Source: a virus. From it: a stretch of 56,892 nucleotides of DNA. Made by a program: the position numbers and the translations under genes. Below the pieces are notes generated by a model. That model was given only the letters and a program-made list of their open reading frames with translations. It did no database searches and was not told where the DNA came from. This document shows, in pieces, positions 439 to 54,023 of the stretch (the stretch's first letter is position 1; each line of letters starts with the position of its first letter). The DNA lies in the IMG/VR virus record IMGVR_UViG_3300028653_000018, positions 1 to 56,892 of that record. The stretch is one strand, 5' to 3'.

Positions 439-3400
439 ATGAGCGTTGGAGAACTGGTTGTAAGCATTATCGGAGACATGAGTAATCTGACTAGTTCATT
501 CTCCAAAGCTTCTTCAGAAGTTGGTAATTTTGGGTCTAATATTACTTCGAAAGTTGGTAGTGGATTAGAAGCCGTGGGAAAGGCCGCTCTTGTTGCTGGC
601 TCGGCTGTAGGTGTTGGTCTTATAGCTGCTGGGGCAAAAGCCACTTCAATGTTTGAGGATTTTGAAAAATCGGTTTCAAATGCAGCAAGCGTGACGGGGA
701 AAACCGGACAGGCATTCAAAGACGCAAAAGCAAATATAGCTGCTGTAGCCGAAGAACTCGGTCAAAAAACATCGTTTTCAAGTTCACAGGCGGCTGATGC
801 TCTATATAACCTGGCTTCCGCTGGAGTGGATGTTTCCACAATTACAGCTGACAAATTAGTTCCGATTCTTAATCTGGCCTCTGGTACTCAATACGATCTC
901 GCATCAACTACTAGTGCAGTAACTTCTACTCTTTCTCAATTTGGATTAGGCTTTGAATCAGCTGGCCGTGTAGCTGATGTATTCGCGGATTCCGCAGCGT
1001 TGTCCCAAGCCAACATGGAAAAATTAAACTCTTCTATGTCTCAAGTTGGAACGATGGCGAATACCGCGGGTCTTAGTTTAGAAGACACGACAGCCGCATT
1101 GTCAGAAATGTATAATGCGGGTATGGACGGAAGCACCGCAGGAACCGGCCTTAAAGAGGTCCTTGCTTCTCTTCTCGCTCCGACTTCCCAGGCAACAGAT
1201 GTACTTAAAAAAATGGGATTGACTGTAAATGATATTAATCCAACTACAAACAAATTTTCGGACATAATTCAGAAACTTAAAGATCATGGTCTTGATGCTA
1301 CTTCGGCTTTTCAGTTGTTTGGGCGCGAAGGTGCTCCTGCGATATCCGCATTAACGTCTCACTCAGAAGACCTTAAAACGTTGACTGACCAACTGAAAAA
1401 CGCAGGGGGGGTTGCACAAACGATGGCTACTGAGCAGCTTGACACACTTTCAGGCAGTCTTGATGCTCTCAGTGGTTCAATTGAAAATATGTTTATCAAT
1501 GTGGGTCAAGCTCTAGCCCCTACTATCCGTAGCGTAGCCGACACTTTGAACGGATTGATTCCTCAGACACAAACGTTCATCGTTTCAATTGTAACAATGT
1601 TTACAACGTTTCTGGGTCAGCTTGCGCCTGCAGGGAAAGCGATATTAGAAATTAGAAATACCATAATCGAAGCATTTTCAGCCATTATAAAGTCTGGAAG
1701 TGAGACAAATCAAACTTCCGGAATTGCTACATTTATTAATTCACTGTTTGCCGGAATTGCGGATCTTGTAAAAATTGCAGTTCCCATAGTACAGGCAGGA
1801 GTCGCAAATATAATTGATTTTATGTTCGGACTGATCAGTGGTTTAGGCCCGACTTGGAAAAGTTTGTCAGGTATAGCTGATCAGATAGCCACAATCTTTA
1901 AAAATTTATTTGCTACGTTATCGGGACCAGTTGCACAAGAAGCTGGCGCTATTTTATCCAAAGTAATTAATTCAATTGTTCAGACATTCGAATGGCTTAC
2001 AGGCAAAATATCCGATGTATTAGGTGCTCTAACTCCTGTAGTAACTGAAATATGGAAAAGTTTACAAGGTGTATTTTCAAATGCTTCTACTATTTTAACC
2101 CCTGCTTTCGATACCGTTAAACAGTTTTTAGATAACATAAGAACAGCAATGCTTGTTTTTGTATCTAGGTTAGGCCCAACATGGGATAGCTTAGGGCAGA
2201 TATGGACAGACCTTAAAAAGATATTCATGGATGTTTCATCCGCTTTGAGTCCGGTTCTCTCTACGATAGGTGGCAAACTCTCAGAATTTATAGGAGTTTT
2301 AGTAAGTAGTTCTACCGCAATCACAGTTGGTAGATCATTGGCTATTGTAGTAAATACTATAAGTGAAGCTCTATCTGGTCTAATAAAATATCTTGCAGAA
2401 AATAAAACAATATCTAATGCATTGAGTAGTATTTTTTCATACAAGATTCCCGATTCTGTATGGGATACTCTTTCAAAAGTGTTTGAAACTGGGAAAAAGA
2501 TTTTTACAGATTTTGTAAACAACTTAGGTCCGACTTGGGAAAGTTTAGGGAAAATTTGGACTGATCTTAAAAAGATATTCACGGATGTTTCAACCGCGTT
2601 AAGTCCTGTTATTTCTACCATAAGTGGTAAATTCTCGGAGTTTATAGGAGTTTTAACGGGTAGTCCAACTGCGGTTACTGTCGGAGAGTCGTTGGCTAAC
2701 GCAGTAAACACCATCAGCAAAGCTCTATCTGGTCTAATAAAATATCTTGCAGAAAATAAAACAATATCTAATGCATTGAGTAGTATTTTTTCATACAAGA
2801 TTCCCGATTCTGTATGGGATACTCTTTCAAAAGTGTTTGAAACCGGGAAAAAGATTTTTACAGATTTTGTAAACAACTTAGGTCCGACTTGGGACAGTAT
2901 AAAAACCAGTTTTGAGACTGTAAAAACAATAGTTCAAAATTTTGTAGATGATCTTTCACCTACATGGGATAATGTAAAAACTTCATGGGACAGTGCAAAA
3001 AAGATATTTGAAAATTTTACTCCTATATTTATAGCACTTTTAACAGCATTCACCGGAAAAGATGCAGACGATGCCACGACAAAAGGAAAAGCACTAGCAG
3101 ATGTAATAAATCTAATCACTGGAGCGATTGCTGGAGTTCTAAAGTTCGCCGCTGATCATCCGACGATTACTACCATGGTTATTGCCGTTGCCGGGTTAGC
3201 AGCAGCATTCGTTGTATTAGTACCAGCTATCGCCGGGGCAATAACTGCGATCTCCGGTGTTGCAACAACCATAAGCGTCTTAGTAGCTGCATTAAGCACT
3301 GGCGGACTCGGAGCTTTTCTTTTAGAATTATCAGGTGTTTTGTTTCCAGCATTCACTGATGCCCTGATAGTCATTTCAGGCGTAGCGTTGCCAGCCCTCG

Positions 3401-4896
3401 GCACTGCGTTTGGAATAGTGTCTACGGCGATGGGGATACTTGTATACACCGTAATTCCGATTTTAATTGAAGGGCTTGGACTATTAATTACACCAATTGG
3501 TTTGATTGCGGTAGCTCTTGGGTTATTTGTGATAGCTTGGACTCAGAATTGGTTTGACATCCAGGGAAAAGCTAAGACAGTGTGGGAATGGATCAAAACA
3601 GAAGTTGGGAATTTATACAATTCACTGTCTTCAGCATATGATAAAATTGCTAGTTCTGTTGGCACGTTCTGTACGAATTTTAAATATTACTGGGATAATG
3701 CAGGGAAAATAATAGATGATGCAAAAACAAAAATTGGAGACTCTGTACAACATCTAAAAGATAATTTACTCACCATTTACAATAATATAAAAACCGATCT
3801 TACAAACTTTTACAATAATAACTGGGTAACTCCTTGGAATAATTTTGTTGATTATCTAACAACCATCAAAACGAATATCGGTAAAAAAATTGACGATGTT
3901 AAGAATTTAATATCAACAAAGTTTAGTGATTTAAAAACTAACCTAACTGATTATTATAATAATATATGGGTTGCCAATTGGAATAATTTTGTTGATTATC
4001 TAACAACCATCAAAACGAATATCGGTAAAAAAATAGATGACATTAAGACATGGGTTAATCAGAAATGGAACGATATCAAAACAACTATTTCTACTGACAT
4101 CGAACAAATAAAAACCACAATTGAAAATAAAATTAACGATTTCAAGAACGCGGGAATAAAACTTGTTCAGGGCATCATTGACGGAATAACTTCAAAGGCA
4201 AGCGATTTATTAAACACTGCAAAAAGTTTCATGAGTGATCCAATCGGCACTGCTACAAATCTGGTTTCTGGAAACTCTCAGAATGCAGGCGCGAGTATAG
4301 GTAGTAATGTAATATCCGGCCTACAATCTAAAACTCCTGCTGCCCAATCAGCCGGAACTTCGGTTGCGTCGGCTGCTGTGAGTGGTACGTATTCAGTTTC
4401 GTCCTCTGCGCAGAGTTCGGGATCATCGCTCATGCAGAGTTTCGCAAATGGAATTTCGAGTGCTTCTGGGTTTGTTCAAGGGGCGGTTAGCAGGGTTTTG
4501 ACATCGATTAATAATATGCTTCCCCATTCCCCCGCAAAAGAGGGACCGTTCAGAGTGCTCCCTAATTGGGATGCTGTGTTCCTGGATCCTATAGCAAGCT
4601 CAATAAAAAGTATGAGCGGTCTTGTAAGTCCACTTCAGACAAACTTGCAGAAACTAAGAGGTCCCCTAGACTCTATGCTCAGTGATCCACTCTCTGGACT
4701 TTCAAGCGGTCTTGGAACTCTGGCAAATGTCGTTCAAAATGCTGATTTTTCAACTCATAACTATGGTGGAAACACGTCAACTGTCAATCTAAATAATGCT
4801 CCTGGAAATATAGACCTCAATCAATTAGTGCCCCTCATCATGGATGCCATTAACCGAGAGAATAACAGTCAAATGAGAGCGAGGGGTATACAATGA
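439..4896 (+). CDS. Tape measure protein
   Basis: This 1485-residue protein sets tail length and is threaded through the tail tube. Residues about 60-350 resemble the TP901-type tape measure core (an Ala/Ser-rich helical region with repeated AADALYNLASAG-type segments). A hydrophobic stretch lies at about 910-1030, expected to enter the membrane during DNA delivery, followed by Lys/Asn/Trp-rich helical repeats at about 1115-1215. Residues about 577-820 hold a 118-residue tandem repeat. By the usual rule of about 0.15 nm per residue the tail would be roughly 220 nm long, so siphovirus-like. The start ATG follows GAGGAATT. The next gene overlaps its stop (ATGA). Confidence 0.92.
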   Translation: MSVGELVVSIIGDMSNLTSSFSKASSEVGNFGSNITSKVGSGLEAVGKAALVAGSAVGVGLIAAGAKATSMFEDFEKSVSNAASVTGKTGQAFKDAKANIAAVAEELGQKTSFSSSQAADALYNLASAGVDVSTITADKLVPILNLASGTQYDLASTTSAVTSTLSQFGLGFESAGRVADVFADSAALSQANMEKLNSSMSQVGTMANTAGLSLEDTTAALSEMYNAGMDGSTAGTGLKEVLASLLAPTSQATDVLKKMGLTVNDINPTTNKFSDIIQKLKDHGLDATSAFQLFGREGAPAISALTSHSEDLKTLTDQLKNAGGVAQTMATEQLDTLSGSLDALSGSIENMFINVGQALAPTIRSVADTLNGLIPQTQTFIVSIVTMFTTFLGQLAPAGKAILEIRNTIIEAFSAIIKSGSETNQTSGIATFINSLFAGIADLVKIAVPIVQAGVANIIDFMFGLISGLGPTWKSLSGIADQIATIFKNLFATLSGPVAQEAGAILSKVINSIVQTFEWLTGKISDVLGALTPVVTEIWKSLQGVFSNASTILTPAFDTVKQFLDNIRTAMLVFVSRLGPTWDSLGQIWTDLKKIFMDVSSALSPVLSTIGGKLSEFIGVLVSSSTAITVGRSLAIVVNTISEALSGLIKYLAENKTISNALSSIFSYKIPDSVWDTLSKVFETGKKIFTDFVNNLGPTWESLGKIWTDLKKIFTDVSTALSPVISTISGKFSEFIGVLTGSPTAVTVGESLANAVNTISKALSGLIKYLAENKTISNALSSIFSYKIPDSVWDTLSKVFETGKKIFTDFVNNLGPTWDSIKTSFETVKTIVQNFVDDLSPTWDNVKTSWDSAKKIFENFTPIFIALLTAFTGKDADDATTKGKALADVINLITGAIAGVLKFAADHPTITTMVIAVAGLAAAFVVLVPAIAGAITAISGVATTISVLVAALSTGGLGAFLLELSGVLFPAFTDALIVISGVALPALGTAFGIVSTAMGILVYTVIPILIEGLGLLITPIGLIAVALGLFVIAWTQNWFDIQGKAKTVWEWIKTEVGNLYNSLSSAYDKIASSVGTFCTNFKYYWDNAGKIIDDAKTKIGDSVQHLKDNLLTIYNNIKTDLTNFYNNNWVTPWNNFVDYLTTIKTNIGKKIDDVKNLISTKFSDLKTNLTDYYNNIWVANWNNFVDYLTTIKTNIGKKIDDIKTWVNQKWNDIKTTISTDIEQIKTTIENKINDFKNAGIKLVQGIIDGITSKASDLLNTAKSFMSDPIGTATNLVSGNSQNAGASIGSNVISGLQSKTPAAQSAGTSVASAAVSGTYSVSSSAQSSGSSLMQSFANGISSASGFVQGAVSRVLTSINNMLPHSPAKEGPFRVLPNWDAVFLDPIASSIKSMSGLVSPLQTNLQKLRGPLDSMLSDPLSGLSSGLGTLANVVQNADFSTHNYGGNTSTVNLNNAPGNIDLNQLVPLIMDAINRENNSQMRARGIQ
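2169..2890 (+). repeat. 354-bp tandem repeat inside the tape measure gene
   Basis: Two successive units with a period of 354 bp (118 codons) each start at an LGPTW segment. The 3' half of the unit (2368-2538 against 2722-2892) is identical except for one base, while the 5' half has diverged widely. A third, partial LGPTW unit follows. The pattern suggests duplication with later gene conversion, a route to changing tail length in helical-turn steps. Confidence 0.9.
3834..4034 (+). repeat. 144-bp repeat inside the tape measure gene
   Basis: A segment encoding WNNFVDYLTTIKTNIGKKID occurs at about 3836 and again 144 bp (48 codons) downstream, with near-identical bases across about 55 bp. It is a second, shorter in-frame duplication in the C-terminal part of the tape measure. 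Confidence 0.85.
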
Positions 4897-13090: not shown

Positions 13091-13498
13091 ATGAGGGAAA
13101 TAAAATTCAGAGTATGGGCTAAAAAACTTAAACAAGTGATCTACATGTCTGATGCCAGAAAAACACCATATTGTCTGAGGCTAGACTTAGAAGGACATTT
13201 ATATGACACCGCTTATGATAGAGACGATGAAGATGAAAATGTAAATGACTGTTTTGAATTGATGCAGTTTACAGGACTTAAAGATAAAAAAGGAAATGAA
13301 ATTTATGAGGGAGACCTAATAGAAGCCTGGTTCCCAGGAATGCCACATAACATGAGAGCAAAACAAGTAATTACTTTTATGAATGGTTTTTTTGGATGCG
13401 GGAGTTATCCGCTTTATATGATAGACCGTTATTCTATTTTAGTAATTGGGAACCAATTTGAAAATAAAGAATTGTATAATGAAATTATGCATTATTAA
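13091..13498 (+). CDS. YopX-like protein
   Basis: 135 residues with the hallmarks of the phage YopX family: N-terminal MREIKFRVW, central [18 protein letters not shown], and a C-terminal VIGNQFENKEL-type end. The family is widespread in phages and its biochemical role is unknown. A paralogue with the same N-terminus lies at 47033, in the secretion-like module. Confidence 0.85.
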   Translation: MREIKFRVWAKKLKQVIYMSDARKTPYCLRLDLEGHLYDTAYDRDDEDENVNDCFELMQFTGLKDKKGNEIYEGDLIEAWFPGMPHNMRAKQVITFMNGFFGCGSYPLYMIDRYSILVIGNQFENKELYNEIMHY

Positions 13499-16558: not shown

Positions 16559-17407
16559 ATGAAACCCTACTTAATTATATTATTATTCTTAATTTTTACA
16601 GTTTCCCCTGTGCTTGCATCTACAAAAGATGCATGTATCCAAATGACTGACACCCTTGAAAACTCTCAGACTGATCCAGCTTGGAATTATGCTGAAAATA
16701 TCAATGATGGAAGAGGAATAACTTTTGGATGTATAGGTTTCTGTACAGGCACGTATGACGGCAATGTCCTGATTAAGTACTATACATCTCTGAATCCGAA
16801 TAACCCACTTGCAAAGTATATCCCTGCTCTTGATAAGATAGATGCAGGCTCACACAATGCAGCGGGAGGAGACGGAAACCCTTCAATAGTCGGTTTGTCT
16901 GGATTTGTTCAGGACGTGCAGAATAATAAGGACCCGGTGTTTAAGCAGGCTCAACTCTATGAATTGGATCAGCTTTACTGGAATCCTGCTTATGCTGAAT
17001 GGCAAAAAATCGGTGCAAAATATCCTCTGACTCTGGCTCTCCTTTATGATGCTTCAGTTCGTGAAGGTCCAGATGGGATGTTAAAACTGGTTAGACGGGC
17101 CGGAAGTACCTCAAGTGAAGCTCAGTTTGATTCTAATTTTATACTGGCTTATAAGAAGGTTCTGCAGGCCGAAGGACTCGGAGATACAACTAGGATGATA
17201 GGATTTACTAACTTATTGCTTGCTGGAAACTATAACTTGACAACTCCATTAACTTTTGTGGCGTATGGTGACTCTTTCACAATTACAGGAAACCTCGGAA
17301 TATCCCAGGTTGTAACTCCAGTTAATACTTCAGCAAATAACACTACTGTTAATACCCCAAAACAAAAACATCATTTCATTATCAGAAGACATTGCAAAAA
17401 AAGGTGA
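16559..17407 (+). CDS. Secreted GH46 chitosanase-like lysin
   Basis: 282 residues. A signal peptide (about 1-20, hydrophobic, ending VLAS) is followed by a glycoside hydrolase family 46-like domain (about 22-235). The signature LENSQTD...NDGRGITFG...GFCTGTYDG is visible. E34 and D50 align with the catalytic Glu and Asp of GH46 chitosanases, whose spacing is similar. The tail is Asn/Thr-rich and ends in a basic stretch (HHFIIRRHCKKR). GH46 enzymes cut between amino sugars; methanochondroitin of Methanosarcina contains N-acetylgalactosamine, so it is a plausible wall lysin. Export by the host Sec system, with the holin-like neighbour, completes a lysis cassette. Confidence 0.8.
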   Translation: MKPYLIILLFLIFTVSPVLASTKDACIQMTDTLENSQTDPAWNYAENINDGRGITFGCIGFCTGTYDGNVLIKYYTSLNPNNPLAKYIPALDKIDAGSHNAAGGDGNPSIVGLSGFVQDVQNNKDPVFKQAQLYELDQLYWNPAYAEWQKIGAKYPLTLALLYDASVREGPDGMLKLVRRAGSTSSEAQFDSNFILAYKKVLQAEGLGDTTRMIGFTNLLLAGNYNLTTPLTFVAYGDSFTITGNLGISQVVTPVNTSANNTTVNTPKQKHHFIIRRHCKKR

Positions 17408-29825: not shown

Positions 29826-30338
29826 ATGGCAGTCCAGAAAAAGAAGAAAGTAAACAGGAATAAAGAATTCCGAAATAATTCGAAAGTTTTTAAGTGGACT
29901 CCATCAAGAATAAAAGCAGCAAAAATGTTATCAACCGGAATATACACGTTTGAAGAAATACAAGACGAAATTCGTATTAAGACGACTACTTTCTGGGAAT
30001 GGAGACAAAGCCCAGTATTTCTTGAAGAAGTGGATAAACTCACGTTAGAATTAAAAGAAGTTACTAAAGCCGGATTGATTCGGGAATGTCTCTACGGACT
30101 TGATAAAAAGCGTAAGTATATCTCAGAAGATAATAAAGCTCATCTTGATTATATAAAAGTGATTGCTGATCTCCAGGGGCTTACTAAACAGAAGATTGAG
30201 CTTGATGCTAACATGAATCATTCTGGTAGTATAGACATTAATAAAATGACAGATGAAGAATTACAGCAGGCTATAGATGACGATCTCAAAAAGCTTATCG
30301 ACGCGGGAATCATACCAAATACTAAAAAGGATGAATGA
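29826..30338 (+). CDS. terS: Terminase small subunit (TerS-like)
   Basis: 170 residues from ATG 29826 (GTG 29817 possible). N-terminal basic helix-turn-helix segment (about 25-65: KAAKMLSTGIYTFEEIQDEI, TTTFWEWRQSP) followed by a helical oligomerisation part and an acidic C-terminus, the plan of TerS. It would recognise the packaging site and load TerL. The 8-base overlap with TerL confirms pairing. Confidence 0.75.
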   Translation: MAVQKKKKVNRNKEFRNNSKVFKWTPSRIKAAKMLSTGIYTFEEIQDEIRIKTTTFWEWRQSPVFLEEVDKLTLELKEVTKAGLIRECLYGLDKKRKYISEDNKAHLDYIKVIADLQGLTKQKIELDANMNHSGSIDINKMTDEELQQAIDDDLKKLIDAGIIPNTKKDE

Positions 30339-31821
30339 GTGGCAACATGAATTAGATATTAGACACGCTCGAACTAACCTTTTAGACTTTACTACCTTCA
30401 CTAAGAAAAATTATAATGTTAATTGGCATCACGAGCTTATATGTAGGGAACTTGGTAAATTTGTTACAGGTATAACCAGACGATTAATTATAAGTGTTCC
30501 TCCACGAAACGGTAAAACTGAATTGGTAAGCCGTAGGTTACCTGCGTTCTTATTTGGTAAAAACCCCGATGCTCAAATAATAGCATGTTCTTATGGAGCT
30601 GACCTGGCACAACATAATAACAGGGATGTCCAAAGAATAATTACTTCTCATGAATACTCTGAACTTTTCCCAGATACATATCTTAATGATTCAAATGTAA
30701 GGACTGATTCACATGGTTCTTATATACGAAATGCTGACACTTTTGAAATTGTAGGATACGCGGGAGCTTATAATTGTGCCGGTATAGGTGGAGCAATTAC
30801 TGGAAAAGGCATGGATTATGGAATAGTTGACGATTATTTCAAAAACCGAGAAGAGGCCGAAAGCCCAACGATGAGGGATAAACTATGGGACTGGTATCAA
30901 GATGTTTTTTCCACTAGGGAAGAAGGAGACGGCTCTATTCTCATTACCGCTACTCGGTGGCACAAAGATGATCTTATAGGCAGGTTGCTAAAGAAGGCCA
31001 AAGAAGATGAAGAAGCGGATCAATGGGAAGTCATCACGCTTCCTGCTTTATCTGAAGAAAATTTAGAACCTTATGATCTAAGGACCGGGCCAGATCAGCC
31101 TCTTTGGCCTTGGAAGTTCTCTTATGAATGGCTAAAAAAGAAAAAAGCAAATCTAACCGTGTATTCCTGGTTATCACTTTATCAGCAACGACCTGTTGCG
31201 GTTTCCGGGAATTTAATAAACGAGAGCCAGTTTAAATATTGCAGTATATCAGGAGATTTATTAACACTTGGTCCCGGAGTAGAAAATAAAAAATATATTC
31301 TTCCCCAATGCAGGATCTTTCAAACATGTGACCCGGCTGCATCAGAAAGAAGTTCAGCCGATTACTTCGCTTTAGGAACATGGGTACAAACCCCACTAAA
31401 CGAACTTGCTCTTATTGACCTTATTCATACACGTATGGAACAACCAAAACAGGTTCCTCTATTCAAACAGCAATACGAATTATATCATCCTATTACACAG
31501 TATGTAGGAACAAAGGGACTTGGTATAGGTTTATATCAATCTCTTAAGAATGAAGGGTTACCAGTTGCAAAAATAGAAGAAGACACTGATAAAGTTTCCA
31601 GGTTTATAACAGCGTGCGATAGAATAGCCGCAGGAACTATTTATTTTAGTGAGACTCTTCCAAAGTTACCTGATTATAAACTCGAACTTCTTGATTTCCC
31701 GAAGGGGGAGCATGATGACAGAGTAGATATTACAAGCATGGCAGCTTTGGTAGTTATTGAACATCCATTCCCTCTGACTAATTTCAGCCTTTCAAGCATA
31801 GCAACAACAAAAAGCCGATAA
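30331..31821 (+). CDS. terL: Terminase large subunit (TerL)
   Basis: 496 residues from ATG 30331. Walker A SVPPRNGKTE at about 55-64; Walker B-like YGIVDDYF at about 163-170; the coupling motif TATRWHKDDLIGRL near 207-220. The C-terminal nuclease begins QTCDPAASERSSADYFALG. It powers DNA entry and cuts concatemers. The start inside TerS is supported by overlap; a longer frame from 30277 is less likely. Family: HK97/Mu-type tailed-virus motor. Confidence 0.92.
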   Translation: MNEWQHELDIRHARTNLLDFTTFTKKNYNVNWHHELICRELGKFVTGITRRLIISVPPRNGKTELVSRRLPAFLFGKNPDAQIIACSYGADLAQHNNRDVQRIITSHEYSELFPDTYLNDSNVRTDSHGSYIRNADTFEIVGYAGAYNCAGIGGAITGKGMDYGIVDDYFKNREEAESPTMRDKLWDWYQDVFSTREEGDGSILITATRWHKDDLIGRLLKKAKEDEEADQWEVITLPALSEENLEPYDLRTGPDQPLWPWKFSYEWLKKKKANLTVYSWLSLYQQRPVAVSGNLINESQFKYCSISGDLLTLGPGVENKKYILPQCRIFQTCDPAASERSSADYFALGTWVQTPLNELALIDLIHTRMEQPKQVPLFKQQYELYHPITQYVGTKGLGIGLYQSLKNEGLPVAKIEEDTDKVSRFITACDRIAAGTIYFSETLPKLPDYKLELLDFPKGEHDDRVDITSMAALVVIEHPFPLTNFSLSSIATTKSR

Positions 31822-37953: not shown

Positions 37954-38505
37954 ATGATCGTAGGAGAAATAAAAACAGGCCAAAATATAAAATCATTTTT
38001 TAGAGCAATTAAAGAAGATTTTTCAAACGATGAAAAAGTAAGTTTGGGAGATCCAGTAATTATAAAATGTTCTGCTAACGGAGCAACCCCTGTAAATATG
38101 ACGGGGGCAACATACGCTTTTGATTCCGATATGAATCAATGGCTACTAGATGGACCGAGTTCATTCGTTCCTTCTTATGGTTTTTTGGATATCACGATAA
38201 AAGGTACAAATATTGATTATGTAATGATAAGATTAGCAGTTTCAGGGGGAGGAGGCGGAGGCATGGGAGTATTAACAAAAGATTACACAGTATCCGGAAA
38301 TGATATTCAGTTCACTGATACAAGTATAGACAAAAGAGACATTGTAAAAATAAGAGGAATTTCTAGTAACCTAGATATTTACGACTGCAATCGTATCACA
38401 GCAGGCAAAAATGATATAACCCTATCGGGTACAACCCCAGGATTGTTTACATGTGATTATCATATTCCAGCAGGTGAAACCCTTAAAATTTGGTTAGAGT
38501 CATAA
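37954..38505 (+). CDS. Beta-rich protein of unknown function
   Basis: 183 residues, mainly beta strands with a Gly-run linker (SGGGGGGMG at about 90-98), so two small domains. No signal peptide. It sits between the surface protein and the head morphogenesis gene, whose ATG overlaps its stop (TAATG). It could be a head fibre, a decoration or a chaperone for the large neighbour. Confidence 0.5.
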   Translation: MIVGEIKTGQNIKSFFRAIKEDFSNDEKVSLGDPVIIKCSANGATPVNMTGATYAFDSDMNQWLLDGPSSFVPSYGFLDITIKGTNIDYVMIRLAVSGGGGGGMGVLTKDYTVSGNDIQFTDTSIDKRDIVKIRGISSNLDIYDCNRITAGKNDITLSGTTPGLFTCDYHIPAGETLKIWLES

Positions 38506-39407
38506 TGCTCCTCAATTCAAAAGAGATTCTTAACATAGAATCTCGCTTTTCCCTACTTTTCGAACGAACTTTTTTCAAAGGTATCTCAGGACAGCCAGCC
38601 TCATCCTATAAAAAACAGGTTTCTTACTGGTTTAAGTCAAAAACCTTTCAAAAACAGATAGATAAAATTATTGATGATATTTATCTTTTTTCAGTATCTT
38701 TTTCAGATAAGAAAATCAATAAATCACTTAAAGCCTCAGTAAACCCAACTAGGCACATCCTCAGTGCAGCAGATGATAACCCTTTAATCCTCACAGAAGA
38801 GGCTATTACACAGGCTGAAGGTCTGGCAGGTGAAGTAGTAGACTCTATTGTTACCATGCTCAAGGATGATAACCTGTATAAGGAAGCCCCAGCAACTTTA
38901 GAGAGTAGGGTCCGTGAACTATGGGGGGGAGAGAAGTACAGGGCTACACGATTTGTAAGGACATTTACAGCTGATGTGGCTACCTCTTCGAGCTTACATC
39001 GATATTCTCAGCAAGGAATTGAAGAGTATCAGTACTATGCTCTTATAGATGGTAAGACATCACCTATATGCAGGGCCTTACATGGCACTATTTTTAAGGT
39101 AGGTTCTCCAGAAGCGAGTAAGTTTTCTCCCCCAAAACATTTTCACTGTCGCAGTTCTATCATTCCAGTGACTATGTTTTCTGATGTATCTGATTCAATG
39201 CGCTATGAAAACAGAGACTTCTCAAAGCCGATGAATCAGGACTTTTCAATTTCAGGAAAAGAAGTTGATTCTAAAGTTATTAAAAAAGTATTCAAAGATA
39301 TTAACACTTTCAATGAGAATTACCGGATTGATAAGTTTATTTTGGATGAAGATCTGGAAAAGAGATATACACGGATTGGTATTGGTATTGAATCACAGCC
39401 TACATGA
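38505..39407 (+). CDS. Mu gpF-like head morphogenesis protein
   Basis: 300 residues from ATG 38505 in a TAATG overlap; the TTG at 38490 is less likely. The C-terminal half bears the gpF signature YYALIDGKTSPICRALHGTI and PPKHFHCRSSIIPVT, with conserved Asp, Cys, His and Cys. The N-terminal half is helical. Such proteins aid early head assembly and sit next to the portal gene in many tailed viruses. After the TGA stop the same frame stays open for 19 Lys-rich codons. Confidence 0.85.
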   Translation: MLLNSKEILNIESRFSLLFERTFFKGISGQPASSYKKQVSYWFKSKTFQKQIDKIIDDIYLFSVSFSDKKINKSLKASVNPTRHILSAADDNPLILTEEAITQAEGLAGEVVDSIVTMLKDDNLYKEAPATLESRVRELWGGEKYRATRFVRTFTADVATSSSLHRYSQQGIEEYQYYALIDGKTSPICRALHGTIFKVGSPEASKFSPPKHFHCRSSIIPVTMFSDVSDSMRYENRDFSKPMNQDFSISGKEVDSKVIKKVFKDINTFNENYRIDKFILDEDLEKRYTRIGIGIESQPT

Positions 39408-43974: not shown

Positions 43975-44139
43975 TTATTCAATTTCATGTGATTTTGAAA
44001 AAGCCATTTCGAAAGCTTCTTTTTTCCATTCATAAAACATTTTTGCAGCGGGATTGTCCCTATGATCCCATCGATCTTCTTCGGTTCTACAATAGTCAAT
44101 CATTCCACATAACCAGTTTTGATAATCTTCTAATTTCAT
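43975..44139 (-). CDS. Small leftward protein
   Basis: 54 residues (LEDYQNWLCGMIDYCRTEED...), helical. ATGA overlap with the upstream 119-residue gene. Ends three bases from the convergent beta-helix gene. Unknown. Confidence 0.5.
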   Translation of the reverse strand: MKLEDYQNWLCGMIDYCRTEEDRWDHRDNPAAKMFYEWKKEAFEMAFSKSHEIE

Positions 44140-44495
44140 TTTCTCACCCACTGTTCACCATTTGGACCCATAACACCTTTATCAGTCTTCATAACATTCT
44201 GAGCTAATCCACCATCAAACATTATCACGTAAAACGTAGAATGCTCTTCATAGTGCCCTGTTGAAATTACTCCACTTGGATTATGAATTTCAAAAGTATG
44301 CGCAACTGTATTAAGTTTCATTCCAGCATGTGGATTGTTCTGATCCTGGAAGTTAGTGAATGATGCTGCATAAGCTGTCATTGCGGAAATCAGCAGTATT
44401 ACAGCAGATATGATCATTAAGTTTCTTTTGTTTTTGAGTATTTCCATTAACGGAAGCATATCTTTATTTTTTAGTACTCCAGTGGTTTCATACAT
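44136..44495 (-). CDS. Membrane-anchored protein
   Basis: 119 residues with a single membrane segment (about 28-44, MIISAVILLISAMTAYAASF) and an outer beta domain. N-terminal soluble tail about 27 residues. Could be a viral surface or envelope-associated protein; no family recognised. Confidence 0.55.
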   Translation of the reverse strand: MYETTGVLKNKDMLPLMEILKNKRNLMIISAVILLISAMTAYAASFTNFQDQNNPHAGMKLNTVAHTFEIHNPSGVISTGHYEEHSTFYVIMFDGGLAQNVMKTDKGVMGPNGEQWVRK

Positions 44496-44668: not shown

Positions 44669-44801
44669 TTAACCACAAAATAATTTTTTCTAACGGTTAA
44701 ATTAACAATACGGCTATTTATAAGTTTGTATCCATACGACTTTATCCGTATAAACTCGGACAAGTCCGAACATTTAAATAGTTTGAAAGTAATTACTTAG
44801 T
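44669..44801. promoter_or_regulatory. Promoter/operators of the secretion-like module
   Basis: Palindrome TCGGAC-AA-GTCCGA (44756-44769) and ATACG/CGTAT pair (44734-44751) precede a TATA-like ACATTTAAATAG (44770-44781) about 21 bases before ATG 44802. A second TATA-like CTATTTATAAG lies near 44714-44724. The palindrome directly upstream of the TATA box suits an activator or repressor. Confidence 0.55.
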
Positions 44802-45146
44802 ATGAGTAAATTAAAAAAGTTAACATGGAGTTTTGCAGGAATTCTTCTTACTGCTGGCTCGGCATTGGCAGAAGGAGACAACAACGTAACAAGCAATCTT
44901 GGGCCGGCTTCGGGAGTCGCAGGTGATCTTATGTTTTATCTTAAATGGGGATCTATTTTCGTCGCTATTGCTACGGTCCTCATCCTTTGGATAAGACATA
45001 ACCTAGCCGCACATAGTAAAAAAGTAGGTGATGTTTTACAGATCAGAGATGATATGAAACAATGGTTTATAATGGGTCTGGCTGTCATAGTTAGTTTTAT
45101 CTTTTTATTTCAGTATATAATACCACAATTAGATAAATTCATCTGA
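44802..45146 (+). CDS. VirB2-like pilin/membrane protein
   Basis: 114 residues: signal peptide (about 1-23, ending SALAE), a short outer loop, two membrane segments (about 45-64 and 88-110) with a basic loop between. This matches the plan of VirB2/TrbC-type pilins of type IV secretion. Followed at ten bases by the VirB6-like gene. Call by topology and context. Confidence 0.5.
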   Translation: MSKLKKLTWSFAGILLTAGSALAEGDNNVTSNLGPASGVAGDLMFYLKWGSIFVAIATVLILWIRHNLAAHSKKVGDVLQIRDDMKQWFIMGLAVIVSFIFLFQYIIPQLDKFI

Positions 45147-45155
45147 GGCTCTATT

Positions 45156-46061
45156 ATGAAAAGAGTCTATGCTATTCTTTTTTTTCTTTTGTTCTTTTCT
45201 TACCCTGTTTTAGCTGCTGATTATTCAGCAACTGATGTAGGAGCAGGGATGGTTTCAGCTGGAATAGGGCAGTTTTTTAAAGACCAGATAAATGGTATGT
45301 ATTCAAGTTTTCAAAATAATACAGCCATTAATAGCCAATTTGGAACTGCTAGAGGGGCACTATACACAGTCATTACATACGTTCCTGACCCATACGCTGA
45401 CCCAACAATAAAATCTATATTCTTGAACTACAGAGCGCTTTCAATATTCTTTGTTGTTCTCTTTATAATTGGGGAGTTTATGAATCGGAACTTAGCACGG
45501 ATGAAAGTATCTGAAAACGTATTTGGAAATAGGGATTTATCTACCTCTAAATTCGTTGGAGGGGTAGCAATGTGTTTTCTAGGACTCTTTGCTAACTTCA
45601 TCTTTATGTTTGCATTGCAAGTGATAAGAGTATTAAGTCAATTCGCAATGTCTAATGTCCTTGATTCTATTGCTCCAAGCCCTGATAACCTTATACTGTA
45701 TGTTATGATGGCTATCTGTGATTTCACAGTATTCATATTCTTCATAATCAGGTTTTTTATAATATATGCAGTGGCAGTTCTGTGTACGGTTCTTGCTGTC
45801 CTGTTAGTTCCAGAATCGTCAAGGGACTTTGCTAAAAAGTCAATAGATCACATAGTCAGGATTTTACTCTTGCAGCCAGTGGCTATTTTCTTTACTTGCC
45901 TGGGGATTTTAGTAATGAAAAACCTGCCTGTAGCATTACAACCATTTGGATATATTGGACTTACAGTGTTTGTTTTTCTGGTTTGTCTTTATATGCTAAT
46001 TGGAGATTTTGAATTCATTAAGAAGGGTGGAAAAGTATTAGCAAAGGTGATTGCAGCATGA
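45156..46061 (+). CDS. VirB6/TrbL-like polytopic membrane protein
   Basis: 301 residues: signal peptide (about 1-20, ending VLAAD) and five to six membrane segments from about residue 90 on, in two groups (90-175, 185-295). Typical of VirB6/TrbL channel proteins. Gene order and the VirB4-like ATPase downstream support a conjugation-type channel. ATGA overlap with the next small gene. Confidence 0.5.
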   Translation: MKRVYAILFFLLFFSYPVLAADYSATDVGAGMVSAGIGQFFKDQINGMYSSFQNNTAINSQFGTARGALYTVITYVPDPYADPTIKSIFLNYRALSIFFVVLFIIGEFMNRNLARMKVSENVFGNRDLSTSKFVGGVAMCFLGLFANFIFMFALQVIRVLSQFAMSNVLDSIAPSPDNLILYVMMAICDFTVFIFFIIRFFIIYAVAVLCTVLAVLLVPESSRDFAKKSIDHIVRILLLQPVAIFFTCLGILVMKNLPVALQPFGYIGLTVFVFLVCLYMLIGDFEFIKKGGKVLAKVIAA

Positions 46062-46195
46062 AATATCAATTTACTCTTACAATAGTAGGTGAATGTAGTG
46101 ATACAATCACCATAACACTAGAAGAATACAGAGCGCTTACATTGATAATGAATAGTTGGTTAAAAGACGAGGGGAGGGTTATACAAGATGTCTAA
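46058..46195 (+). CDS. Small module protein
   Basis: 45 residues, beta then helix (YQFTLTIVGECSDTITITLE...). Overlaps both neighbours by four to eight bases. Unknown; its placement suggests a link with the channel proteins. Confidence 0.5.
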   Translation: MKYQFTLTIVGECSDTITITLEEYRALTLIMNSWLKDEGRVIQDV

Positions 46196-47036
46196 CACTC
46201 CTTACGAACCTCCGAGGCCACCAAAGACGATAACTAAAATTCAAGATGATCAATTCTTAGACTTTTCAAGTCCGTTTACATGGGTTATGATGGTCTTTAT
46301 CTCCGTTGCACTCGTGATCATCTTTGAACTTGGAAATGTACACACATTAGTATTCCAGATAGTTACTGTCCTTGCCTTAGTTTTATGGCTTGTAATATGG
46401 ATTAAATACTTTTCATCTTCTGAAAAAGTAACTAAGCAATTTGCAGTATTTCATTTCAAAGTTAATGATGTGAAAGGCCAGCATGTAATTAATAAATTTG
46501 AAGTTCCAGTTTCGTTCTTACAGAAATTAGTGCCTATTGTAGCCATTCACGAAGGAGGAATAATCGAGTTTACTGAGAAAAAATACGGAATTTTAATGGA
46601 AACTTTTCCAGTTAGAATTTCAGATGAAGAAAGAAAAGAACATGAAAAGAGGATCGAGAAGGTAGTGAATGGTATTCCTGCAAATACCCACTTCAAAACG
46701 ATAGCATGTAGTAGATTAGAGCCTAGAAAACCTTTGATGCAGTACCTTTTAGACATTACAAGTAAGTCTACTGGAAATAAAGCAACTGATCTACATCTTG
46801 CGAGCCTTTACAATAAAGTAGCAGGTGATGACACGCCTGTCATTTCATGGAAATATTACGCTTTTCAGAGTCTTGGAGAACAACGTAGTTTAGAGGCTGC
46901 CAGAATTCAGTATGGTGCGACGGTACCTGGTCTACTTAAAAACATGCGAGGCGCGAAATTAGATCCCATCGTCGTAGAAGATCCTCAAGAAATTGCTTAT
47001 GCGTATCGTACTTTATTTTCGGAGATGGTAATATGA
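46188..47036 (+). CDS. Two-pass membrane protein of secretion-like module
   Basis: 282 residues: a Pro-rich start ([17 protein letters not shown]), two closely spaced membrane segments (about 28-70), then a soluble cytoplasmic domain of about 210 residues. This arrangement recalls VirB3/PrgI-type partners of VirB4 ATPases, though with a much larger C-terminal part. Overlaps the YopX-like gene by four bases. The C-terminal domain is not recognised. Confidence 0.5.
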
Positions 47037-47440
47037 GAGAAATAAAATTTAGAGTATTTGATAAAAATATACCTGCTAACTGTACTGACAAGGAACTCGA
47101 TAATCCATCTGGAGCAATGGTTGTTGAATGGGATTACATTGTTAATTCTTCTTATCTAATTGGTGGTCTGGCTGGAAGATATCCAATTATGCAGTTTACC
47201 GGACTGAAAGATAAAAATGGAAAAGAAATTTATGAAGGTGATATTCTAAAATACGACGATCCATATAAACAGAAAGCTCACACGTTCCCATATGTTATCA
47301 AATGGGATTCTGAAGAAGCGTGTTTCGACTGCACTAATGAAATGAATTTCATGCTCGGTTCCGTGTGGAAGAATATGGAAGTTATAGGCAATGTATGGGA
47401 GAATCCGGAACTTTTGGGGGCAATAAATGAAACTGTTTGA
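47033..47440 (+). CDS. YopX-like protein, second copy
   Basis: 135 residues starting [12 protein letters not shown], with [18 protein letters not shown] in the centre and a [11 protein letters not shown] end. Paralogue of 13091. Its insertion inside the secretion-like operon suggests that it is an accessory. Overlaps the neighbours by four and 14 bases. Confidence 0.85.
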
Positions 47441-49931
47441 AAAACTAAAAGCTCTAAATAGAGAACGTAAACACAAAAACAGAAAAGCAATCGAAGAAGC
47501 CGAACATAAGATCTGGTGGGACAGCTACTGTAAAGTAATCTCTCCAAATAGAATTGAAGTCTTTGACACTAATCTAATAATTGATCAAAGAACCTGGGCT
47601 AGATGTCTTATTATTGGCCTCCCTACAAAGAATGGTGAAGGTTATCCTAGAGATATGACCTCTAAAGCAATTGAGAGAATACAAGACCTCTCATTCGATG
47701 GCTGCAAAGTTATGATGTCACATAGTCTCATTCAGATACCAAATGAACAGGCCAGAGACGACATGCAAAAGACTCTATTTACAGTAAATGTAAATCAAGA
47801 ACACGAAAAGCAAGTCAATCCGGGCTCAACTCCTAATCTTGCTTTAATGTGCAAAGGTGAAGATGTTGTCGCTAATTACCGGGAAATGTACTTTAACGGA
47901 CATAGAAGCTTTCATTCTTCACTTATCCTAGTAATAACAGGCGGTGAAAAAGAAGTATTTAACGCGGAAAGTAAAATCATCTCTATTTTAAAGAGTGAAA
48001 TAATAGACTTTTCAATTCCATCAGGAAAGCAGTTAGAAATGTTTTTGGCTGCAATGCCTTTCCCTATAAGCGACTCAAAATCGTGGGTAGAGGTCAGGAG
48101 CGATACCGCCGCAATCCTTTGTACAAGTACTAACCTAAACTCAAGAACCGATGTAAAAGGGTTGTACTTCGGTAAGGACCTTAAAACAAATGCAGAAATC
48201 TTAATCGACTTAGACACACTTCCAGCAAAGCACCTGACCTTTCTTGGAAGTACAGGAGCCGGTAAAACCTTCTCTTTCCTACTTCTCCTAATGAGAACAC
48301 ATGACATGCTAGGATCGAGAATAGTTTATACGACTCCTAAAGCGGATACTGGTACTGACTATAGAGCTGTAGCAAACTACTATGGTCAAGATGCCTGTAT
48401 CGTTGACATCGGCCCATCGGGAAGTAATATCAACCCACTGCAAATACTTTTCGATTCTCAAACGATGGGTATAAGTCCTTATGCCTATGCAAGAGCTTAT
48501 GATCGACATAAGGGGCTTTTTATTAAGTTTATGAATGTCTGGCTTAATAAAGTAACTGACAACATGGAATCTTATCTTGATGAAACTCTTAATATGGTCT
48601 ATGAGCAAGCTGGAATTTACCGAGATCAACCTGAAACCTGGACTAATGCATGGCCTGTCTTTAGAAACCTGAGGGAGATTTGGGAAAAGGATATGGCTAA
48701 ATCACAAAAGGAGATCGGAAAGAAGCGGTTAACTGCCGAAGCTCTTTTTAATAAAACTTATCACATGGGAGATAAAGGAACTTTAAATTATATGAATAAA
48801 CCTACTACTGATCTTGATTTGTCAAAAGATTTTATCATTATTGATTTATCCGGTGTCCCTGACCTCATTCAAGATGCTATGAATGTCATGGTTACAGGTA
48901 TGGTAGCGTCGAGGTTTTCAACAGATTCAGAGAAGGAAACTATAATCGCAGTGGATGAAGCTGCCGTATACCTCAGAAACCAAGAGTTAGCCGCGTCTAT
49001 GTTAAAAACGCTAACACAGGGTAGATCTCATAGAGTTTTCTTATGGCTTGCCACTCATCAGCCTTCTGACTTTAAAAAGAATAATGCAAAGGAAGAGTAC
49101 AAAACAAATATGTTCATTAACATCGTTTTAGGGGCAAATTTAGAGAACAATATAGGGGATGTAACAGACTACTTTAACTTGACCGAGGAAGAGGCTGAGA
49201 TTCTTACAAGTGCTGAAGTAGGGGAAGGTCTGCTTATCGTTAAAGGTCAGAGAATCCCTATTAGATTTGAACCAACTGACCTTGAGAAGTCTGTAATAAA
49301 AGGTACTTACAGAAAGCAAAATCTACCTGCCGTTAATGGATTCTCAATATTCCATGATATTCAATGGCTTGTAAATGAACAGCATCTTATCTTCGCGGAT
49401 TGGGTGCAGGGTGATCCAGAACTACTGAGAAAGCAGGGATATGATAAGCATAGAGTGCAGAGGATTGCACAGCCAGGGCCTACAATGTGCTATGCTCCGA
49501 CTGGAATGATTGACTCAAGAGGACTCATAGACCTCCCACACTTCGGAGATCAAACACTGGACCATTATGCTTCAGTTATTCAGTTGGCAGCTCTCCTTCA
49601 AAGCATGGGTTTTACTGACATCATCATAAATCACGGTAATGAATCTAGTAATCAAGCAGGGACGGTAGATATTGAAGCAAAGTATGATGGAAAAACATAC
49701 GCTTTTGAGTATGAAAACTATAATAATAAAAGTCCTGATATATTCACACGAAAACTTGAATCCGCACTTGAAAAGTACGATGTAGTGAGGTTCGTTTGCA
49801 GTGCCACGGATGCAAAGTTTATAAGTAAGGCGATAAATGAAAAATACATTCTAAAAAGAGGCGATGAAGTAATGCAATTCGTTGTCGAGTCAACTGGTGG
49901 AATCATTCCAGAGGATGAAACCAACCTTTAA
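47427..49931 (+). CDS. VirB4-like ATPase with nuclease-like C-terminal domain
   Basis: 834 residues. N-terminal region (about 1-220) resembles VirB4/TraC. The ATPase domain (about 240-620) carries Walker A GSTGAGKT at 274-281, Walker B IAVDEA with D510 and E511, and an RxxR-type [14 protein letters not shown] segment. The C-terminal 170 residues include [20 protein letters not shown] (D748, E761, E763), reminiscent of PD-(D/E)XK-type nucleases but with E in place of the usual K. It could drive DNA or protein export or pilus assembly. No coupling protein or relaxase is present; the fused domain might act on DNA. Confidence 0.75.
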
Positions 49932-50275: not shown

Positions 50276-50839
50276 TTAATTTGAAAATATAACAGTAAAA
50301 CTCTTCCCAGCATATTCAGGCCCTAAACATATTCTTCCTTCAGAATCAGCTTTTACAACACAGTAATATACAGGATGATCAGGTGTTGCAGCCCGATTAA
50401 AAGAGTTCGATGTGATTCTGGTAAAAACGATTCCTGTACTTTTTACTTCAGTTGGAGCTGGTGATTCAGTAACATCCTCTTTTGGAACTTCGGTAACAGT
50501 TGCAGCAGGTGCTTCTGTAACAGTTTGTTCTGGTTCTGATCCAGTATCCAAATTAAGAGTCTCTTCCGATGTCGAGGTATCTCCCTTTGCAGCGTTCTCT
50601 TCGTTTAAAATTCCTTGTAAATCAGGCGTAGGGGTTGGAGTTGGTTCAGATAGTGTTAAAGTTTCTTCGGTTGGTTTAGGTGTTGGAGTAGGCTTAGGAT
50701 CTGGTTTATGATCGGGGGTAATTGTATTTTCTTTTGTAGAGTTACTGGATTTATAATCAAGCACGTTAGCTCCAACTATAACCCCACCTATTAGAAGAAG
50801 GGCTCCAACTGAGATTAGTATCCAAGCTATATTATTCAT
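50276..50839 (-). CDS. Membrane-anchored Pro/Thr-rich stalk protein
   Basis: 187 residues: an N-terminal membrane segment (about 5-25, no cleavage site), a long Pro/Thr/Glu stalk (about 40-135, PKPTPTPKPTEE repeats), and a compact C-terminal domain (about 138-187, YYCVVKADSEGRICLGPEYA). It would project outward from the membrane. The low-complexity stalk is typical of archaeal cell-surface proteins. Likely host-surface display or adhesion. Confidence 0.6.
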   Translation of the reverse strand: MNNIAWILISVGALLLIGGVIVGANVLDYKSSNSTKENTITPDHKPDPKPTPTPKPTEETLTLSEPTPTPTPDLQGILNEENAAKGDTSTSEETLNLDTGSEPEQTVTEAPAATVTEVPKEDVTESPAPTEVKSTGIVFTRITSNSFNRAATPDHPVYYCVVKADSEGRICLGPEYAGKSFTVIFSN

Positions 50840-50893
50840 GGAAGTAGAAAAGGGAGTAAAATATTATAAATGTTTTTAAAAAAGAGTGAAGAA

Positions 50894-51415
50894 TTACTTC
50901 ACATTAATATTTTTACAAGTTGGAGAGCACCAACAAGAACCAACCTGAACCTTTAGACAAACAGTGAAATAACCTTTCGAAGCTGGAATACTCACGGTAA
51001 CCCCAGGCTTACTGTTTTTTAGGATATATCCGGTAAGATGTGTTCTGCCAGCATCCGAATACTTTTTAATACTCCATTGGTCAGCTACATGTTTACAGAC
51101 AGTTGTATCTTTGAACTGGAGTTTTCCGCTTACAATGGAAGCAGCGAAAGCTGGAGTACAACAGTTAGCGCATGTAGTACTTTTTGTAGTATTACAGGTT
51201 GAACAGGTTCCAGTACTACACGTTCCTGAAGAAGCGGTTGTCTGATTAACACATTTCGTTAAGGGGCAGTTATCAGTACATCCTGCACAATTACAAGATC
51301 CAGACTGACAAGCTGTACACGTACAGGTACATTTCCCTGCAGTACATGCGGCAGATGCTGAAGAAACACAAAGCATCATCACTAATAGAGGGATTATGAA
51401 ATATTTGGGTTTCAT
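50894..51415 (-). CDS. Secreted very Cys-rich protein
   Basis: 173 residues: signal peptide (about 1-22, ending ASAA), a Cys-rich block (about 23-85, with CTAGKCTCTCTACQSGSCNC and many CxxC/CxC pairs), and a beta domain (about 88-173) with more Cys at the end. Roughly 20 of the first 90 residues are Cys, so disulfides or metal are likely. Its start follows the operator at 51421-51435 by six bases. No family recognised. Confidence 0.65.
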   Translation of the reverse strand: MKPKYFIIPLLVMMLCVSSASAACTAGKCTCTCTACQSGSCNCAGCTDNCPLTKCVNQTTASSGTCSTGTCSTCNTTKSTTCANCCTPAFAASIVSGKLQFKDTTVCKHVADQWSIKKYSDAGRTHLTGYILKNSKPGVTVSIPASKGYFTVCLKVQVGSCWCSPTCKNINVK

Positions 51416-53138: not shown

Positions 53139-54023
53139 GTGACAAATGCATATGATGAATTTTCTAAGAAACTTGACGAAAAGATTGTAGAACCCCTCAG
53201 ACAGGTAAACAAAGGACGTAGACTCGTTTACGTTACTCCTCCGCAGGGATTCGGAGTTACCTCTGTAGATTGGGGTAAAATGACTGAGATGAGTGACGGT
53301 TATGTTTCAATGGGGTTCACAGATGGAAATAAGGACTCAATCGACGTAAAACTCACCAATGCTCAGATCCCGGTGTATTGGAAAGATTACACCATTGACC
53401 GTAGAATCTACGAAGGCTGGAGAACGAGAGGCTTCGATATCGATGCAGCAAACGCCATTGCAGCTGCATACAAAGCCTCGAGGGCCGAAGACGGGGCCAT
53501 TATCAACGGTGTAACCAATGACGGTACGAACTACGACTTTGTAGGCATCTATCAGGGAGCTGTAGCGTCTGGTAACAACTATGCTACTTCATGCTCGATA
53601 GGAACCTTTGGTAACCTTACGTCTGCCATCAATGCCGCATACGAACTCATGGACGAGGACGGAGTACCCGTTGACAGTCTGCCTTTCAATCTTGCCTTGA
53701 ATTCAACATCTTTTAAGAAAGCAAGATCTGTAAGAAACACCGGGGGGAATGGAAATCGCGAACTCCCTGACATCCTTGAACTCCTAAACGGTGGGAGTGT
53801 GATTTCTGTAGGTACTCAGGTTATGACAGGACAGGGATTCCTTTGCCCCACTCCTGCAGTAGGAGAACCTTATCTGGATTACTACCTAACATCTGACTTC
53901 CAGACTGACCCAATGACTCCGATGTATCAGAAAACTGGAAACCTCGGAGGAAGAGTATTTTCTGCTGGAGTTCTCCGGATCAAACAGTTTGATGCGTTAT
54001 GCGCTTTTTCAAACCTGTCATGA
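53139..54023 (+). CDS. Major capsid protein (HK97-fold)
   Basis: 294 residues from GTG 53139 (GAGGTGATTCAC before it). A short helical N-terminus, then KDYTIDRRIYEGWRTRGFDI, DAANAIAAAYKASRAEDGAI and a beta-rich C-terminus resemble encapsulin-like/DUF6260-type HK97-fold capsids. There is no long cleaved delta domain, so a separate scaffold is needed; the preceding gene supplies it. Forms the icosahedral head. Confidence 0.8.
   Translation: MTNAYDEFSKKLDEKIVEPLRQVNKGRRLVYVTPPQGFGVTSVDWGKMTEMSDGYVSMGFTDGNKDSIDVKLTNAQIPVYWKDYTIDRRIYEGWRTRGFDIDAANAIAAAYKASRAEDGAIINGVTNDGTNYDFVGIYQGAVASGNNYATSCSIGTFGNLTSAINAAYELMDEDGVPVDSLPFNLALNSTSFKKARSVRNTGGNGNRELPDILELLNGGSVISVGTQVMTGQGFLCPTPAVGEPYLDYYLTSDFQTDPMTPMYQKTGNLGGRVFSAGVLRIKQFDALCAFSNLS

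Follow-up and report, generated by a model that had tools for sequence, protein, structure and literature searches.

Tailed viruses move DNA between cells, as do conjugation machines, but the two routes are usually considered distinct. Among the described systems that most resemble the locus studied here, the Ced system of Sulfolobales and the Ted system of Thermoproteales import DNA, with counterparts of VirB2, VirB4, and VirB6 only and with no recognized relaxase or VirD4 (PMC9905601). Other archaeal conjugative elements also lack recognized relaxases, including the thaumarchaeal integrative and conjugative elements (ICEs), which have homologues of VirB3, VirB4, and VirB6 (PMC6563490), and the minimal conjugation type IV secretion systems (T4SSs) of Gram-positive bacteria have a VirB2/3/4/6 core with TcpE/PrgI and a CD1110-type VirB4. 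Here we analyze a T4SS-like module in the IMG/VR virus record IMGVR_UViG_3300028653_000018, the whole 56,892 bp of which we call the window. The module is a core T4SS-family set inside a probably complete tailed archaeal virus, and with a probability of about 0.6 we consider it a minimal virus-carried member of the T4SS superfamily, built like Ced and Ted, that moves DNA to or from a neighboring cell.

The two ends of the record overlap near-perfectly over 106 bp, and the viral genome is therefore probably complete, and circular or circularly permuted. An initial annotation, made from the sequence, had proposed that six genes between positions 44,802 and 49,931 form a type IV secretion-like module in a tailed archaeal virus. 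All six open reading frames (ORFs) are present at these coordinates and on the same strand (Table 1), and the VirB4 profiles and the VirB6 fold described below agree with the proposal; judged by these two proteins, membership of the module in the T4SS superfamily is very likely. The genes are tightly packed, with a 9-nt gap after the first and then overlaps of 4 to 14 nt between successive genes, and upstream of them lie an archaeal-type TATA-like element (TTTAAATAG), the inverted repeat TCGGAC-AA-GTCCGA, and a perfect 12-bp palindrome (AAGTAATTACTT, positions 44,787 to 44,798), as expected of the overlapping operon under a palindromic promoter that had been described. The proposed location between portal/head genes and capsid genes holds in part: TerL and a MuF-type head gene precede the module and a candidate major capsid/head protein follows it, but a portal gene was not identified.

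Profile and structure database searches both identify the ATPase as VirB4-like. The NCBIfam profile TIGR00929 (VirB4_CagE) matches all 12 ATPase homologues (the window protein at 1e-10), the best NCBIfam model for the window protein is NF045975 (2.3e-38), its nearest families are Mbov_0397 and CD1110, and the VirB4 structure 4ag5 is matched in the PDB at 2e-19 by the single sequence and at 1.2e-28 by the profile. We also considered that the protein might be an unrelated HerA/FtsK-type packaging or defense ATPase beside unconnected membrane proteins. The PADLOC HerA and Mad8 models do match the ATPase core, and HerA models match weakly, but they reach 1e-8 at best in NCBIfam and the HerA structure 8wiv reaches 5e-6 with the single sequence, far short of the VirB4 matches. 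The VirB6 fold match, the existence of VirB3–VirB4 fusions, and the presence of the virus's own TerL also speak against this explanation, to which we give almost no chance. The VirB4 reading put forward initially thus stands, because the profiles did not place the ATPase in a HerA/FtsK clade.

The C-terminal region of VirB4 is predicted to be a PD-(D/E)XK nuclease-fold domain. Modeled alone, residues ~636 to 834 gave a predicted local distance difference test (pLDDT) score of 89 and a predicted template modeling (pTM) score of 0.87, and the model contains the alpha-beta-beta-beta-alpha-beta core of the PD-(D/E)XK superfamily. Foldseek matched it to 2p14 and 1y88 with probabilities of 1.00 and 0.98, VIA gave Z scores of 7 to 9 to Can2, Hjc, VRR_NUC, and FokI, and the matches from the two programs are mainly PD-(D/E)XK nucleases (R.BspD6I, AF1548, Hjc, VRR_NUC, FokI, and Can2). 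Residues H713, D748, E761, R811, and G812 are invariant across the 12 VirB4 homologues. A Replic_Relax assignment for the C terminus was set aside, since Pfam lent it no support and the structural matches indicated a broader grouping, the PD-(D/E)XK superfamily.

The VirB6 assignment comes from predicted structure. An AlphaFold model was built from 11 sequences, comprising the window protein and its virus homologues, and an unguided Foldseek search of the whole PDB returned R388 VirB6/TrwI as the best match (probability 0.95). Realignment with VIA placed three R388 VirB6 entries on top, with Z scores of 11.9, 10.8, and 10.4 that lie above the next match (7.8) and below the threshold recommended for helical bundles (about 13). 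Although the family gave no sequence match in a PDB profile search or in Pfam, the fold search therefore bears out the earlier description of this polytopic protein as VirB6-like. In a library of viral structures the best match was gp153 of Bacillus phage G (Foldseek E 8e-5). This protein is encoded two genes before gp155, which is annotated as VirB-like and matches the VirB4 family CD1110 at 3e-51, and the match thus provides an independent check on the VirB6 assignment.

The VirB3-like gene lies directly before VirB4, with YopX alone intervening in the window, and in 7 of 238 genomes searched across the class its homologue is fused to VirB4 in a single ORF of 1071 to 1116 aa. These fusions support the VirB3-like plan suggested for the two-pass protein, for which a PDB profile search gave no match and Pfam a weak TcpE match (0.011) in 3 of 11 members. 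Comparison by hhalign gave a negative result for its soluble domain being a copy of the VirB4 N terminus. For the protein called VirB2-like, topology and position fit the label, with the signal peptide, the two helices, and the position conserved across 10 homologues, but the sequence evidence is weak: T4SS_pilin in 2 of 11 members (0.0018) and DUF2976 (0.095) in Pfam, and no PDB profile match. Kinship of the pilin to the N terminus of VirB6, as reported for CedA1 and CedA, was not significant here.

No VirD4/TraG coupling protein (PF02534) was found in the window or in the other module viruses, with control genomes positive; one match below the cut-off, in record L027, falls on that record's own VirB4. 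There is also no relaxase among the 25 listed of 26 Pfam families found for the 48 other window proteins, so that the absence of both components noted earlier is upheld and the composition resembles that of the Ced and Ted systems. Like them, the module has a signal-peptide VirB2-like pilin candidate (as TedC), a VirB6-like channel, and a VirB4-like ATPase (PMC9905601). In contrast to them, it adds a VirB3-like protein, the nuclease-fold domain of VirB4, a surface protein, and a divergently encoded small exported protein, resides in Methanosarcinia tailed viruses and mobile elements, and does not fully match the CedB model. It shares with the minimal Gram-positive systems a VirB4 near Mbov_0397/CD1110, the order VirB6-VirB3-VirB4, and the weak TcpE similarity, but it is archaeal and virus-borne and, as far as was found, without VirD4 or relaxase. 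The archaeal conjugative elements, thaumarchaeal ICEs included, are similar in their VirB homologues, but most of them carry VirD4/TraG and are non-viral.

Besides Ced and Ted, there is a precedent in Bacillus phage G with its annotated VirB-like gene. This tailed phage encodes, in order, the pilin-like gp150, gp153 with its VirB6-like fold, the small VirB3/PrgI-like gp154, and the VirB4 gp155, the last of which is shorter (549 aa) than its counterpart in the module. Alignment of the membrane proteins of the two loci with hhalign gave no detectable sequence relation, and the two sets were probably acquired independently. The phage G cluster itself (JN638751.1, 86,971 to 90,843; L179:4972-8844) is an uncharacterized T4SS-like set in a giant bacterial phage. 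In the phage collection, about 20 records, MT835474.1 and other 'Bacteriophage sp.' entries from human stool, encode VirB4-like proteins; they could be conjugative elements filed in the wrong place, or phages that have modules of this type. In open-access full text we found no published account of a module of this kind in archaeal viruses: the terms 'phage' and 'virus' do not occur in a 2025 review of T4SS nomenclature, 'VirB' does not occur in a survey of jumbo phages, and VirB is unmentioned in the paper on MetMV, a 67.8-kb Methanosarcina virus.

The boundaries first drawn around the six genes were too narrow, as the real module reaches upstream to position 42,136 and includes a surface protein gene and a divergent gene pair. 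In Methanosarcina contigs and viruses, the homologue of the surface protein sits inside the module, next to the pilin and VirB6 genes or between them. Its C-terminal membrane-anchored domain is conserved in every module examined and occurs alone in chromosomal copies. The beta-helix region of the copy in genome G013 is similar to the window protein encoded from position 13,675, itself probably a disaggregatase-related protein. Of the divergent pair, the small exported protein and its relatives have a C-terminal G-x-x-W-V-[KR] motif in common, with the window copy lacking the lipobox cysteine, and it is a candidate entry-exclusion or immunity protein. The 65-aa AbrB/SpoVT-like protein, which has no match in Pfam, is a candidate regulator of the divergent promoter.

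Table 1. Module genes, associated features, and virion genes in the window.
Feature	Coordinates	Strand	Basis
Secreted surface protein, C-terminally membrane-anchored, N-terminal right-handed beta-helix	42136..43971	+	Pfam Beta_helix 4e-5
Small exported protein, lipoprotein-like family	44136..44495	-	blastp to lipoproteins divergent from modules: L057 E 2.6e-4, L065 9e-4
Small AbrB/SpoVT-like protein, 65 aa	44471..44668	-	40% identical homologue, same divergent position, virus L027
Promoter region: TATA-like element, inverted repeat, palindrome	44755..44801	+	Sequence
VirB2-like pilin candidate, 114 aa, signal peptide ending ..SALA, two transmembrane helices	44802..45146	+	Position, topology
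VirB6-like polytopic channel protein with signal peptide, 301 aa	45156..46061	+	AlphaFold model against R388 VirB6/TrwI
Short ORF of 45 aa, no counterpart traced in the other modules	46058..46195	+	Read from sequence
VirB3-like protein, two N-terminal transmembrane helices and soluble domain, 282 aa	46188..47036	+	VirB4 fusions, weak TcpE
YopX protein, passenger gene	47033..47440	+	Pfam PF09643 1.1e-24
VirB4-like ATPase with predicted C-terminal PD-(D/E)XK nuclease-fold domain, 834 aa	47427..49931	+	NCBIfam, PDB 4ag5, structure model
Pair of small secreted proteins, the first or second rich in Cys and the other with a Pro/Thr-rich stretch; membership uncertain	50276..51415	-	tblastn to G022:C111
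Tape measure gene	439..4896		
TerL	30277..31821		PHROG 7e-101
MuF-type head gene	38490..39407		5e-23
Major capsid/head protein candidate	53139..54023		

Scans of viral contigs with the major capsid protein (MCP) and with the single-sequence ATPase found nothing, and an alignment query was needed to find relatives. With it, the module was found in 13 further IMG/VR records (L026-L032, L077, L078, and L080-L083), its gene order much the same in each; comparison with the window or with genome G022 showed that 8 of these records also hold virion genes. The Methanosarcina elements in which the initial annotation had suggested looking for the block also contain it. G022:C111, a 60-kb provirus-like contig from a genome of the genus Methanosarcina, aligns collinearly with the window, and a divergent version of the module occupies the corresponding position; G013 has a single stand-alone chromosomal module, surrounded by host genes and without visible phage genes in its vicinity; and further Methanosarcinia genomes have stand-alone modules, one of them with Prim-Pol, ERCC4, and tyrosine integrase neighbors. 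All carriers found belong to the class Methanosarcinia, and the three matching genomes in a phylum sample of 393 were already in the class-wide list. The VirB3-like gene was present in none of 19 more distant viruses among the TerL matches listed, a set without a positive control that shows little, and the annotated Methanomicrobiales virus vir524 has no such block within the stretch read.

The host of the virus is likely Methanosarcina, because a VirB4 homologue 71% identical to that of the window occurs in a genome sharing its genus with a Methanosarcina sp. metagenome-assembled genome, and because a Pfam scan shows that the window also encodes a disaggregatase-related protein (PF08480), a GH46 protein, and two DUF1699 proteins. 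The disaggregatase-related beta-helix protein (13,675 to 15,099) and the GH46-type hydrolase (16,559 to 17,407) are candidate polysaccharide-coat enzymes for entry or release.

Comparison of the viruses shows exchange of divergent versions of the module, as a cassette, at one site. Between G022 and L028 the MCP is 70% and TerL 55% identical, with VirB4 only 23%, while between L027 and L028 VirB4 is 79% and TerL 64% identical, with the MCP at 22%. Where synonymous divergence (dS) is unsaturated, the ratio of nonsynonymous to synonymous divergence (dN/dS) is about 0.05-0.22, and the module is thus maintained under strong purifying selection. These ratios, together with recurrence of the block in 13 other records, argue that the module is more than a chance assembly. 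The surface protein diverges faster than VirB4 (54% versus 79% identity between L027 and L028). In the near-identical viruses L080 and L082, the VirB6, VirB3, and MCP proteins are identical and MCP dS is 0.005, yet dS is 0.81 between their VirB4 genes (L080:7051-9612 and L082:9908-12469), and VirB4 has therefore been swapped by recombination, apparently as a single gene.

DNA transfer would be the likeliest function of the module. DNA is favored as the substrate because of the nuclease-fold domain in VirB4 and because of the mobile-element context, with integrase, Prim-Pol, and ERCC4. In this process, the VirB2-like, VirB6-like, and VirB3-like proteins would assemble around VirB4 in the host membrane, during infection or lysogeny. 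The surface protein, with a beta-helix distantly similar to the disaggregatase-related protein of the virus, might bind or open the polysaccharide coat of the cell, although the coat-opening role is a guess. VirB4, with its own nuclease-fold domain, would then process DNA and drive it through the channel, either into or out of a neighbor in the aggregate, without needing a separate relaxase or coupling protein. Several points weigh against this reading. The VirB6-like model has low confidence (pLDDT 65, pTM 0.56) and helical-bundle fold matches can be generic, while the pilin assignment relies on topology and weak matches. The position next to E761, where the PD-(D/E)XK motif usually has lysine, is E or A, so that catalysis by the domain is uncertain. 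Finally, a tailed virus already has virions, and a second route requires a benefit.

The direction of transfer could instead be inward, with the module taking up DNA from neighbors for recombination or repair, as in Ced, and being carried by viruses that profit from diversification or from repair in the host. The composition is closest to that of Ced and Ted, which import DNA and have no relaxase or VirD4 (PMC9905601), the G013 module is a single chromosomal copy in a host context, and the CedB model NF041017 matches 9 of 12 homologues. However, that match reaches 35.8 bits, far under the equivalog cut-off of 700, and many copies are in viruses and integrase-linked elements, which are usually self-exporting, and we regard import as unlikely. 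Conveyance of DNA in one direction or the other, which import and the favored explanation have in common, is quite probable. Somewhat less likely again than import is that no DNA passes and the module builds a surface filament or complex for adhesion, aggregation, or exclusion of competitor viruses. The secreted pilin-like protein, the fast-diverging surface protein, and the divergently encoded exported protein would suit such a device, and the exchange of divergent cassettes at a single site is what one expects of recognition or immunity loci, but a nuclease-fold domain fused to VirB4 is not easily accounted for unless the substrate is a nucleic acid, and the same module occurs in elements that also have genes for replication and integration. 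Methanosarcinia genomes also hold copies that are stand-alone or plasmid-like, and these, together with the mosaic distribution, would fit a host-plasmid conjugation module repeatedly acquired as viral cargo, to the benefit of the host or another element rather than the virus. We consider this very improbable, given the same gene order at nearly the same genomic position in many viruses, the purifying selection, and replacement in place rather than loss.

If the module does move DNA between cells, a conserved and selected T4SS-type apparatus in Methanosarcina tailed viruses would join the viral and conjugative routes, and methanogens would gain a plausible apparatus for gene exchange. It would also provide an example from nature of a minimal T4SS in which the motor protein itself includes a nuclease-fold domain, which bears on the open question of relaxase-free archaeal conjugation. 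Resistance to infection by virions has been reported for M. mazei cells in aggregates (PMC12369344), and a cell-to-cell route would therefore have an obvious advantage. Tentatively, and with more doubt than for DNA transfer itself, a large group of archaeal tailed viruses might pass its genome directly between cells of an aggregate through a virus-encoded conjugation-type machine with a self-contained motor-nuclease VirB4. Such viruses would have two transmission routes, by virions and from cell to cell, with the exchangeable cassettes setting compatibility or exclusion.

Other genes near the module are less firmly tied to it. The YopX gene, initially counted as part of the operon, is present there but is not a conserved component, lying near only 2 of 28 other modules, and we rejected it as a module part. 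A second YopX protein is encoded at 13,091 to 13,498, with a 52-bp stretch 90% identical to the operon YopX gene. Homologues of the two small secreted proteins downstream of VirB4 flank the module in G022:C111 (L024; tblastn 32% identity, E 6e-16 and 7e-4). Elsewhere in the window, one protein, probably the major capsid/head candidate of Table 1, has a match to the encapsulin family Linocin_M18 (6.5e-16) in addition to its matches to phage head families, and the tape measure gene holds a 375-bp tandem duplication (2170 to 2544 and 2524 to 2898) with 87% identity between the copies.

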